Assembly: GCF_018555685.1 (NCBI RefSeq)
Contig: NZ_JAFLWW010000002.1
Location: 806,001-870,000, forward strand
Origin: Aminobacter anthyllidis
GTDB lineage: Bacteria > Pseudomonadota > Alphaproteobacteria > Rhizobiales > Rhizobiaceae
Length of the DNA stretch: 64,000 nt
Direction: 5' to 3'
A program made the translations under genes and the position numbers. Every line of letters starts with the position of its first letter. Position 1 is the first letter of the stretch. Under the pieces are notes generated by a model that worked only from the letters and a program-made list of their open reading frames with translations, was not told the origin of the DNA and ran no database searches. This document shows, piece after piece, positions 9,831 through 43,304 of the stretch.

Positions 9831-9886
9831 GGCGCCGTCCAAGCAAGAGGGATCATATCAGGGCATGTCCAGATTGGAGAAATGAC

Positions 9887-39735: not shown

Positions 39736-40227
39736 GTGGTCCGCGAGAACGAAATCCGCGACGGCGAAAGCGCCGTCGCGCTGCCACCCCGGTACGACGC
39801 CGAAGTCTATTTCATCGGCCGCATCCGGACGCCCTGGGACTCGCGCCTGCTGACCCCGCGCCAGGGCCGCGCCGACGGCCCTATCTGCCACATCGAGATC
39901 TTCGAGCCATGGGTAGCAGCACTCGAAGGCATCGGGCAGTTCGCGCGCCTTGAAGTGCTCTACTGGCTGCATCTGTCCCGGCGCGACCTGGTGCGCCAGA
40001 GCCCGGCCAATGACGTCACTGCCCGCGGCACATTTTCGCTGCGTTCGCCGGTGCGCCCCAACCCGATCGGCACCCAGATCGTCGAACTGGTCGGCGTCGA
40101 GGGCAGCTTCCTCACAGTTCGAGGCATGGATTGCCTCGACGGCACGCCGCTGATCGACATCAAGCCGGATCGGACGCTGTTCACCCCCATCGCCCCGCCG
40201 CAGCCGGGCGATTTCGAAACCGGTTAA
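39736..40227 (+). CDS. trmO: TsaA/TrmO-type tRNA methyltransferase
   Basis: A 163-residue TsaA-domain protein, GTG start 2 bases after the mop stop. The family signature RGTFSLRSPVRPNPIGTQIVEL and CLDGTPLIDIKPDR is intact; the fold binds S-adenosylmethionine. TrmO methylates N6-threonylcarbamoyladenosine at tRNA position 37. It lies in the molybdate operon, which is curious but may be incidental. Its end overlaps the convergent racemase-fusion gene by 4 bases. Confidence 0.88.
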   Translation: MVRENEIRDGESAVALPPRYDAEVYFIGRIRTPWDSRLLTPRQGRADGPICHIEIFEPWVAALEGIGQFARLEVLYWLHLSRRDLVRQSPANDVTARGTFSLRSPVRPNPIGTQIVELVGVEGSFLTVRGMDCLDGTPLIDIKPDRTLFTPIAPPQPGDFETG

Positions 40228-42050
40228 AGGATCCGCTTGCCGAAGGCGGACATGACGAAGTTGACGGTTTCGGCGGCAATGCGCGGCTCGGTGTCCGCGC
40301 GCAACCCCGAGATATCCATCGACAGCATGCCACCCGACAGGGCTATCGCCTCCATCGCCTGGTGTGTCTCGCGCACCGTCATGCCACCGGAACCGCCAGC
40401 CCAGCCGGGCATCTCGGTGGCCGAGGGCGAGTAGCTGACATGGAAACCGACAGTGCCGGCGGAGGCGATGCGGATCGCCTCGCGCATCACCTCACGCGTG
40501 CCCGAACCGTCGATCTCGGCCATGGTGAAGGCGGTGACGCGGGAATCCTTGAGGATGCGAACCTCGGCCGGATCGGCTTCGCGCAGGCCGACGAGCACGA
40601 CGTTTTCGGGCGAAAGCTGCGGCTGCAGCGCGCCGGGCTTGTGATCGAGGCCAAGAGCGCGCGCCAGGACCGAGCGTTCCGGCGCTTCAACTCCATCCTC
40701 GCTTTCGGGCATCAGCGCCGCGATGGAATCTATCCAGATGACGCCGAAGGAGTGCGTTGCCTCGGCAGCTGCAGCCAGCGCTGTCGACGCCGTGTGCCTG
40801 CCGGCGCCTGCATGCAGCCTGAGAAGGCCGGCGGGCGGATGCTCGGCATCGGCAATCTCGACGACATCGAACTGCATCTGTTCGAGCCGCGTGCCGACCG
40901 ATTGTTTTGCCAGCAGCGGGCCGGCAGTCCCGTCGGCGACGATCGAGACCATGCGCCGGCCGGTGAAATCGGCGATGTCGTGCATCGGCGCCTTTTCGAC
41001 ATACTCCGAGGTCATCGCCGTCAGCAGCGCGCCATAGTTCATGTGGAAGCTGACGCGGTCGCCGACGACGAGCGGCGGTTCGGCATCGGTGATGTCGAGC
41101 ACGAGATGGTCGCTCGACGCGCCCAGCACGCGCACGCCGGGATTGATCGGCACCAGCCCCTCGATCATCGTGTCCTCGCGGCCGATATTGGCAATGCCGC
41201 GCAGCCGGTCGCCCTCGTCGATGAACACCGGCTGGTTGCCGAAGGCGTCGTAGCCGGATTCGCCGATCGGCAGCGACGGCTTGACCTTGACCTCGATCAG
41301 GTCGCCGGTCAGCCTGAAGGCGTTGAACTCCAGCTCCTTCCAGGGCTCCTCCCTGAACGTCTCGTAACCGCCCTGCAGGATCGCCTCGCCGATGCGCAGA
41401 TTGTTGATGCCGGCGGGCAGCTTGTTTTCCAAAAGCAGCGGCAGCGACGATGAATTGCCGCCCGACACCCAGTCGAGGCTGATGCCGGCAAGGCGCTCGA
41501 CCTTGTAGGCGTAAGCGACGAGCTGGTTGAGATTCTCTTCCGTCGGCATGATGGCGCCGAAGCAGGTCAAATTGGTGCCGAGCCCGGCAATGCGCACGCC
41601 AGGCAACTCGAGCACGCGCTCGACCGTCGGCAACAGGTCGTTCGGCCAGATGCCTTCGCGCAGGTCGCCGAGGTCGACCATCAGCATGATGTCGTGGACG
41701 CGGCCGACGCGCTGGGCGATGCGCGATAGCTCACGGATGATTTCAAGTTCGGACTGCAGGCTGATGTCGACCGTGCGTACCACCTCCTCGACACGCGAGA
41801 GCGGCGGGCTGCGCAGCAGCATGATCGGACAGCCGATGCCGCTTTCGCGCAGCCGGCGGATGTTTTCGAAACGCGACTCGGCAAGCCCCGCAACGCCACC
41901 GCGCAGCATGGCGCGCGCCACCTGCGGCAGGCCGCAGCTGCCCTTGGTGACGCCGAACACCTTGATGCCGGAAAGTGCTGCGCGGTCGACGACGGCCCGC
42001 GCATTGCGCTCGATGCGCCCGAGATCGATGGCGACTTGCGGTCCAGACAT
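40224..42050 (-). CDS. Fusion of an alanine/ornithine-racemase-like domain and a degenerate arginase-fold domain
   Basis: A 608-residue protein. Residues 1-~360 are a fold-type III PLP racemase of the ornithine racemase/YhfX group, with the PLP Lys36 in GVTKGSCG and the phosphate loops SGGNSSSLPLLL and NNLRIGEAIL. Residues ~385-608 follow the arginase fold: LRLHAGAGRHT, GVIWIDSIAALM, VVLVGLREADPAEVRIL, GMTVRETHQAMEAIALSGG and the end FVMSAFGKRIL. The arginase metal ligands are mostly gone: DAHxD reads DSIAA and the SxDxDxxDP site reads HVSYSPSATE. The second domain is probably inactive or regulatory. Downstream partner of a D-amino-acid dehydrogenase. Confidence 0.8.
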   Translation of the reverse strand: MSGPQVAIDLGRIERNARAVVDRAALSGIKVFGVTKGSCGLPQVARAMLRGGVAGLAESRFENIRRLRESGIGCPIMLLRSPPLSRVEEVVRTVDISLQSELEIIRELSRIAQRVGRVHDIMLMVDLGDLREGIWPNDLLPTVERVLELPGVRIAGLGTNLTCFGAIMPTEENLNQLVAYAYKVERLAGISLDWVSGGNSSSLPLLLENKLPAGINNLRIGEAILQGGYETFREEPWKELEFNAFRLTGDLIEVKVKPSLPIGESGYDAFGNQPVFIDEGDRLRGIANIGREDTMIEGLVPINPGVRVLGASSDHLVLDITDAEPPLVVGDRVSFHMNYGALLTAMTSEYVEKAPMHDIADFTGRRMVSIVADGTAGPLLAKQSVGTRLEQMQFDVVEIADAEHPPAGLLRLHAGAGRHTASTALAAAAEATHSFGVIWIDSIAALMPESEDGVEAPERSVLARALGLDHKPGALQPQLSPENVVLVGLREADPAEVRILKDSRVTAFTMAEIDGSGTREVMREAIRIASAGTVGFHVSYSPSATEMPGWAGGSGGMTVRETHQAMEAIALSGGMLSMDISGLRADTEPRIAAETVNFVMSAFGKRIL

Positions 42051-42053
42051 GCC

Positions 42054-43304
42054 TCAGCCCCCGTAGACCAGCCCCTGTGGATCGATGTCGGGTTTGCGCC
42101 CAGCGACCAGGTCGGCAAGGAACTTGCCGGAGCCGCAGGCCATGGTCCAGCCGACATGGCCATGGCCGGTGTCGAGATAAAGCCCCTTGTAGCGGGCCGG
42201 GCCGATGACCGGCACCGAGCCTGGCATCATTGGCCTCAGGCCGGCCCAGACTTCGGCCTTGCGCGGATTGAAGGCGCCGGGGAACAGCTCCTGGCCTGCC
42301 TTGAACAGGCGGACGAAATCGCTGGGCTTGTAGCTGCGGTCGAAACCGGCGAACTCGGCGGTCGCGGCCAGGCGCAAGCGATCGCCAAGCCTGGAATAGG
42401 CGATCAGATTGTCTTCGTCGGCGCCACCCATCGTCGGCCCCTTGTCGGGATCGTCAAGCTGCACCGTCGCGGTATAGCCCTTGACCGGGTAGACCGGCAG
42501 GTCGATGCCGTGGCGACGGCCGAGCAGTCCGCTTTCCGGCCCCATGGCGATGACCACGGCATCGGCGCTTAGCACGCCGGCCTGTGTCTTCGCCCCGCTG
42601 ACGCGGTCGCCCTCGACGACCAGCCCCTCGACGGTTGTGTCGAACATGAATTTCACGCCCAGGCGCTCGCTGGCGTGGGCGGCGAGCTTTTCGACGAACA
42701 TGCGGGAATCGCCGGTCTGGTCGAGAGGCGAATAGACGCCGCCGGCAATGCCATCCTTGGCGGCTGCCAGGCCGGGCTCCAGCTCGACCATGCGATTGCG
42801 GTCGACGATTTCGATCGGCAGGCCATGCCTGGCGAGGAAGCGATAGTTCTCGCTGCCTTCGTCGAGGCTTTTCTGCGTGCGGAAGAAGTAGAGGATACCC
42901 TTGCGCCGGTCGTCATAGCCGATGCCGGTCTCGTCAGAGATCTCGTTGATGCACTGGCGCGAATAGAGCGCGAGCCTGAGCTTGACCTCGCTGTTGGCGC
43001 GAAGCCGCGCTGTCGTGCACTGGCGCAGGAAGCGCAGGCTCCAGGCGTAGAAATAGGGGTCTAACCGGAGCCTGACCTTGATGCCGAGATCTGACGTGTA
43101 GAGCGAGCGGATGAAGGTCTTCAGCGCCGCCGGCGAGGCCCATGCGGTGGCATCGCCCGGCGAAACCAGTCCGGCATTGGAATAGCTCGTGCCGCGTGCG
43201 GCGGCCGGATGGCGTTCGACCACGGTGACCTCATGGCCGTCGCGCGCCAGGTAATAGGCTGCCGCCGTTCCGACCACACCCGCGCCCAGAACCAGTATCT
43301 TCAT
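42054..43304 (-). CDS. dadA: D-amino-acid dehydrogenase (DadA-like)
   Basis: A 416-residue FAD-dependent oxidoreductase of the glycine-oxidase/DadA group. The dinucleotide fold VLGAGVVGTAAAYYLARDG is at the N-terminus, TSYSNAGLVSPGDATAWASP is the DadA-like loop, VYPVKGYTATV and the C-terminal GLYLDTGHGHVGWTMACGSGK complete it. It would oxidise D-amino acids to 2-oxo acids and pass electrons to the respiratory chain. It ends 3 bases before the racemase-fusion gene. The two could run L- to D-amino acid and then oxidation. Confidence 0.9.
   Translation of the reverse strand: MKILVLGAGVVGTAAAYYLARDGHEVTVVERHPAAARGTSYSNAGLVSPGDATAWASPAALKTFIRSLYTSDLGIKVRLRLDPYFYAWSLRFLRQCTTARLRANSEVKLRLALYSRQCINEISDETGIGYDDRRKGILYFFRTQKSLDEGSENYRFLARHGLPIEIVDRNRMVELEPGLAAAKDGIAGGVYSPLDQTGDSRMFVEKLAAHASERLGVKFMFDTTVEGLVVEGDRVSGAKTQAGVLSADAVVIAMGPESGLLGRRHGIDLPVYPVKGYTATVQLDDPDKGPTMGGADEDNLIAYSRLGDRLRLAATAEFAGFDRSYKPSDFVRLFKAGQELFPGAFNPRKAEVWAGLRPMMPGSVPVIGPARYKGLYLDTGHGHVGWTMACGSGKFLADLVAGRKPDIDPQGLVYGG

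Follow-up and report, generated by a model that had tools for sequence, protein, structure and literature searches.

A single 608-residue chain encoded in the window (the whole 64,000-nucleotide stretch of Aminobacter anthyllidis DNA that was analysed) consists of an Orr-type PLP racemase joined to an arginase-fold domain that is stripped of its metal site. The fusion, the fold, the ligand loss, its conservation, the purifying selection and the gene order were established by computation. We give an even chance to the protein being a catabolic enzyme that racemises a basic amino acid, with arginine the most likely one, and would feed the D-amino acid dehydrogenase DadA, with the dead arginase domain kept as an oligomerisation module. 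The gene, its parts and its upstream neighbour are located as follows:

40224..42050, minus strand: fusion gene, 608 aa (ATG at 42050, stop at 40224-40226; full-length homologues in the genome scans)
40986..42050, minus strand: Orr/alanine-racemase-fold PLP domain, residues 1-355 (Pfam, NCBIfam and whole-chain model)
41943..41945, minus strand: K36, the presumed PLP lysine (lysine in all 67 distinct fusions)
40227..40970, minus strand: dead arginase-fold domain, residues about 361-608 (Pfam, predicted structure and Foldseek)
42054..43304, minus strand: dadA-type D-amino acid dehydrogenase gene (NF001933, 455.7 bits; cut-off 383)

The initial annotation had read one frame joining a racemase to an arginase-fold domain, and the frame, the Pfam and NCBIfam matches and the structural model bore this out. 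The racemase half matched Pfam Ala_racemase_N (PF01168) over residues 8-224 (E 2e-29). The NCBIfam Orr model (NF040742) aligned with the whole racemase domain (residues 4-353) at 406.7 bits, below its curated cut-off of 480; Orr itself is a stand-alone protein of about 350 aa. The C-terminal half matched Pfam Arginase (PF00491) over residues 365-585 (E 1.1e-15); this match begins at profile position 62 of 280, the domain being shortened, and the rocF arginase model (TIGR01229) gave 64.7 bits against a cut-off of 227.6. The predicted structure of residues 356-608 alone (mean pLDDT 82, pTM 0.85) was matched by Foldseek to the solved arginases 6nbk and 2ef5 (E about 3e-16, TM 0.78-0.79 by query length), and the predicted fold of the second domain is thus that of arginase, as expected. 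The whole-chain model (pLDDT 81.8) was matched to alanine racemases (5yyc, E 9.1e-20); the placing of its two domains is unreliable because the pTM is lower (0.61). The racemase domain has the alanine-racemase fold and K36, whose role as the PLP lysine we take from family knowledge. In two annotated records, the fusion is named merely 'alanine racemase'.

The genome-collection scan, the search patterns of which reach close relatives only, yielded 69 loci. A full-length open fusion is held by 59 of them, most from Mesorhizobium; the other ten are cut by contig ends, carry a stand-alone Orr (L068 and L069) or are broken (L045, L065, and L071). The three broken loci are Mesorhizobium fusion copies with disrupted frames, through either sequencing error or real loss. 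With L081-L086, L108, L109, and three plasmid records, the full-length total is 70 loci, or 71 with the window, representing 67 distinct proteins. The fusion was found among soil bacteria related to Rhizobium, in Aminobacter, Mesorhizobium, Pseudaminobacter, Taklimakanibacter, and others, and in further genomes from this family and order. The three plasmid records that carry it are from Shinella, from a replicon of Sinorhizobium, and from an entry with the label Roseateles. The last (L176, NZ_CP084753.1), by its label betaproteobacterial, is nearly collinear with the Shinella plasmid at the fusion region; the label may be wrong because the record description begins UNVERIFIED_ORG. At E 1e-40, matches were obtained in 15 of 297 genomes in the order scan, 14 of 385 in the class scan, and 14 of 398 in the phylum scan. 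Full-length fusions numbered 7, 1, and 4, respectively (counts that include the window's own genome each time and G245 twice), and the others were Orr-only; a rarer fusion form could be missed since the best three or four candidates per genome were scored in these scans. The distribution is patchy within the window's genus (6 of 10 genomes, the window's own included), and the family scan around G131 found the fusion in 1 of 20 genomes, namely G131 itself. The racemase tree placed 21 of 22 fusions in one clade (support 100/99), outside which falls L086, the deepest fusion branch (40% identity); when the long-branched L114 was excluded, a single fusion clade was not rejected (p-AU 0.318).

In the window, 3 bases separate the dadA stop from the fusion start. 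Upstream dadA was present in 66 of the 69 full-length loci having at least 1000 bases upstream (absent in L048, L051, and L086); the gap does not exceed 70 bases, apart from seven loci in which it is 354-376. A D-amino acid dehydrogenase gene and a catabolic alanine racemase gene form the dadAX-type pair; here too the racemase gene lies beside dadA, but the racemase is Orr-type and carries an arginase domain. The f50 genomes carry, in this order, genes for a permease, a universal stress protein, a guanidinobutyrase (nearest solved chain 3nio, E 3.8e-155), a 5-guanidino-2-oxopentanoate decarboxylase (735 bits; cut-off 500), an aldehyde dehydrogenase, a PRK06524 'biotin carboxylase', and a C45 hydrolase, followed by dadA, the fusion, and RidA. 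The Shinella, Roseateles, and Sinorhizobium plasmid records contain the same gene set, with an Lrp regulator annotated upstream in the first two, and L054 also shows a ketoarginine-type layout. G283/Taklimakanibacter has the f50 order without guanidinobutyrase, which is on another contig (85% identity); RidA was not found in its flanks with the query used. Linkage of the decarboxylase, aldehyde dehydrogenase, and guanidinobutyrase genes would mark a 2-ketoarginine catabolic route of the AruI/GbuA kind. In the window's genome, the decarboxylase gene lies elsewhere and the ketoarginine genes are not linked to the dadA-fusion pair; the decarboxylase gene is likewise away from the fusion in those genomes of Aminobacter and of Mesorhizobium-like bacteria that were examined. 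Co-occurrence of decarboxylase and fusion was uninformative, since 24 of 26 genomes exceeded the cut-off, fusion-negative ones included, and the fusion-positive genome G131 had no decarboxylase match.

Several features of these and other neighbourhoods were recorded in addition. The PRK06524 'biotin carboxylase' and the C45 autoproteolytic hydrolase stand between the ketoarginine genes and dadA at L148:8622-11098 and L150:4289-6835; the two loci share 81% identity in the PRK06524 protein, more than the 50-70% in the other four cluster proteins compared. Several plasmid records from Vibrio and from Roseobacter-type bacteria (H13-H15 and H17) show a stand-alone Orr racemase beside a DUF1611 protein, and H8 lists DUF1611 alone; the neighbour of the stand-alone Orr at L077:311-2571 is presumably of the DUF1611 family. 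The window's own genome contains tandem arginase-family genes (L177, G000:C25:161500-165500) resembling MetCa/MetCb enzyme-pseudoenzyme pairs, one gene with GGDH and DSHLD and the other with GGDR, SAQLD, and FNFNVMD.

To describe what the arginase domain has lost, eight active arginases (four from the PDB and four from fetched loci) were compared with 13 dead domains in B. caldovelox numbering, with H99, D122, H124, D126, D226, and D228 taken as the six Mn ligands. The former metal boxes are the following:

40794..40808, minus strand: former GGDH box, residues 415-419 (at the position of ligand H99, 65 of the 67 distinct fusions have R and 2 have H)
40716..40730, minus strand: former DAHxD box, residues 441-445, now DSIAA (D441 in 67 of 67; His at 443 and Asp at 445 each in 0 of 67)
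40413..40442, minus strand: former SxDxDxxDP box, residues 537-546 (Asp at 541 in 0 of 67, Asp at 543 in 10 of 67)

Five of the six ligands are gone from the window fusion. The motifs DSIAA, HVSYSPSATE, and AGAGRHT are altered as the initial annotation stated, with corrections: the D122 equivalent is kept as D441, Gly417 is unusual (residue 417 is Asp in 60, Gly in 3, and Arg in 4 of 67 distinct fusions), and the equivalents of catalytic His139 and Glu271 have also gone. Across the 13 dead domains, the D122 equivalent is kept in 13, H99 in 2, D228 in 1, and H124, D126, and D226 in none. None of the 13 keeps an equivalent of H139, N137, T240, or E271, and 1 keeps that of S135, while E181 is kept in 13 and D178 in 7. 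The sequence linking the metal boxes varies between fusions, and new residues at the old active site are near-invariant, Y540 and T545 each occurring in 66 of 67 distinct fusions. The old arginase pocket is not preserved, because the substrate-binding loop (S135, N137, and H139) and Glu271 were replaced along with the ligands.

A different set of arginase residues is kept without exception:

40509..40511, minus strand: D514, aligned with B. caldovelox D199, interface (67 of 67 fusions; 13 of 13 dead domains, compared with the 8 active arginases)
40368..40373, minus strand: R560-E561, aligned with R249-E250, interface (each in 67 of 67 fusions and 13 of 13 dead domains)
40350..40352, minus strand: E567, aligned with E256, interface (67 of 67 fusions; 13 of 13 dead domains)

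The conservation test used the 65 positions invariant in the eight active arginases, a position counting as kept when present in at least 12 of the 13 dead domains. By this measure, 2 of 13 catalytic-site, 4 of 4 interface, and 12 of 48 other positions were kept. The interface set differed from the positions elsewhere (p 0.0067), in a set of only four positions named after the alignment was seen, and loss at the catalytic site was not significantly greater than at the other invariant positions (p 0.71). By residue numbering, we presume that mammalian Asp204 and Glu262 correspond to B. caldovelox D199 and E256, the alignment including no human sequence. A 2020 article by Lobos, cited in PMC11271267, is said to name Glu256 and Asp204 in its title for the arginase oligomer. 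Asp204, Glu262, and Arg308 of mammalian arginase have an interface role: Arg308 forms a bridge to Glu262 and, in the rat enzyme, to Asp204 of the neighbouring subunit. In B. caldovelox arginase (3CEV), free L-arginine occupies the region of the Arg308 bridge (PMC7925462, in excerpt).

Arginine is the likeliest substrate because the linked ketoarginine genes suggest a path from L-arginine through D-arginine to 2-ketoarginine. From gene content and family knowledge, we infer that the racemase domain would convert L-arginine to D-arginine and that the DadA-type dehydrogenase encoded just upstream would oxidise the latter to 2-ketoarginine. RidA may clear the imine after this step, and the decarboxylase, aldehyde dehydrogenase, and guanidinobutyrase would then carry 2-ketoarginine to GABA. 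Such a route appears to have good support for some members of the family, and for the window's genome it is extrapolated. Against it stand the occurrence of the decarboxylase in fusion-negative relatives, its missing match in G131, its location apart from the fusion in Aminobacter and Mesorhizobium-like genomes, the lack of an adjacent DadA in L048, L051, and the deepest fusion L086, and the fact that, of the named racemase families, ornithine racemase is the closest. It is conceivable, with a lower probability, that the substrate is L-ornithine (or lysine), as the name of the Orr family would suggest, and that DadA oxidises D-ornithine to 5-amino-2-oxopentanoate, which would be turned into proline or GABA. 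NF040742 is the best racemase model, with 390-417 bits for four fusions and 335 for L086, and the dadA-fusion pair in Aminobacter and Mesorhizobium is not beside ketoarginine genes. All five fusions scored below the Orr cut-off, whereas a Geosporobacter Orr passes at 499; these scores say little, because two stand-alone Orr relatives are also below it (306 and 362). Ornithine, which the initial annotation had put forward, is made doubtful by the clusters of part of the relatives, which point to 2-ketoarginine: those of f50, Shinella, and Taklimakanibacter contain 5-guanidino-2-oxopentanoate decarboxylase, and the first two also guanidinobutyrase.

The arginase half would be descended from a RocF-type arginase and would not itself hydrolyse arginine. 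Over 15 close pairs, dN/dS was 0.025-0.152 in the arginase part and 0.024-0.090 in the racemase part; in 60 aligned rows, 57 of 253 positions of the former and 174 of 355 of the latter were invariant. The dead domain is thus under purifying selection and clearly constrained, though more variable than the racemase part. Decay of one copy was ruled out by the conservation across fusions and by these dN/dS values. The initial annotation had named beforehand relatives that keep the Mn ligands as the sign of a decayed copy, and none of the 67 distinct full-length fusions keeps the full set. That the arginase part is a functionless remnant in decay is very improbable: its variability and the three broken Mesorhizobium copies would agree with this, but the low dN/dS, the strictly conserved blocks, and its retention in several families do not. 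The sensing of arginine or ornithine in the old pocket without metal, as first proposed, is also improbable. Although E181, in part D178, and the new residues Y540 and T545 are kept, S135, N137, H139, T240, and E271 are almost wholly replaced, the inter-box loop varies, and the strictly kept residues include interface ones. Docking of a true ureohydrolase by the dead domain, as MetCb does with MetCa, would join racemase and ureohydrolase in one complex, and seems unlikely, if less so than pocket sensing. In its favour, an Aminobacter metal-free arginase subunit needed by its active partner has been published (PMC11271267, in excerpt), guanidinobutyrase shares the fusion's cluster in f50 and the three plasmid records, and L149 of G131 carries an intact agmatinase-like gene that stops at 9832, with homology to the fusion setting in at 9835 with TTG (an uncertain start, because the frame stays open further upstream). 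Against it, neither the window nor those Aminobacter and Mesorhizobium loci for which neighbouring genes were listed showed a ureohydrolase beside the fusion. The partner genes, moreover, vary between agmatinase-like and guanidinobutyrase, whereas arginase is what the dead domain most resembles. For the oligomerisation module, the argument is that trimer-interface residues are kept and the active site is gone, so that the dead domain would hold the racemase units, dimeric in the alanine-racemase fold, in a larger assembly. Against it speak the lower conservation of the dead domain, a catalytic-site loss not significantly above that of other invariant positions, the unsure domain placing in the whole-chain model, and an interface set of four equivalences, partly presumed and named after alignment. 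Regulation of racemisation by arginine through the preserved interface is possible, because the same interface binds free L-arginine in B. caldovelox arginase. By this analogy, the dead domain could be an arginine-gated switch in which L-arginine bound at D514 and E567 drives assembly and thereby activates the racemisation of arginine, a specific version that we regard as rather unlikely.

The initial annotation knew of no described protein with this design, which was too strong a claim. The Fusobacterium ornithine decarboxylase, a PLP enzyme, has at its C-terminus an arginase homologue in which Mn ligands are partly replaced, and its decarboxylase domain alone is similar in activity to the whole protein (PMC8503589, in excerpt). 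The arginase tail may therefore not affect activity, which counts against the oligomerisation module proposed here. Both proteins combine a PLP domain and a metal-less arginase domain in one chain; the Fusobacterium enzyme has an aspartate-aminotransferase-fold decarboxylase and two critical Asp replaced (PMC8503589, in excerpt), whereas the window fusion has an alanine-racemase-fold racemase and has lost five of six ligands. A dead arginase on a PLP enzyme is thus already published, and the racemase version is a further variant. The title of Mothersole 2022 reportedly implies that some species keep arginase function in the Fusobacterium-type fusion. MetCb of the Aminobacter metformin hydrolase MetCaCb is a metal-free arginase fold that matters through assembly and, like the dead domain here, has five of six ligands changed (PMC11271267, in excerpt). 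It differs from the fusion in being a separate protein without a racemase, partnered with an active ureohydrolase. A T. brucei arginase-like protein without the binuclear metal cluster, reportedly described by Hai in 2015, has the arginase fold without metal as here, but is eukaryotic and not fused. A literature search of open papers found neither a racemase/dead-arginase fusion in print nor an arginine racemase route.

Metal-less arginases are known from few places and their roles are mostly unclear; the fusion adds a case on a different PLP fold, and its conserved dead domain illustrates how an enzyme that has lost its original activity may be retained for a different function. The kept interface residues beside the lost active site offer a direct test of what the dead arginase is for. 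For organisms with the full cluster, an entry into arginine catabolism by way of D-arginine is predicted. If the arginine-gated switch were true, a spent hydrolase fold would control the access of arginine to a catabolic route for D-amino acids.
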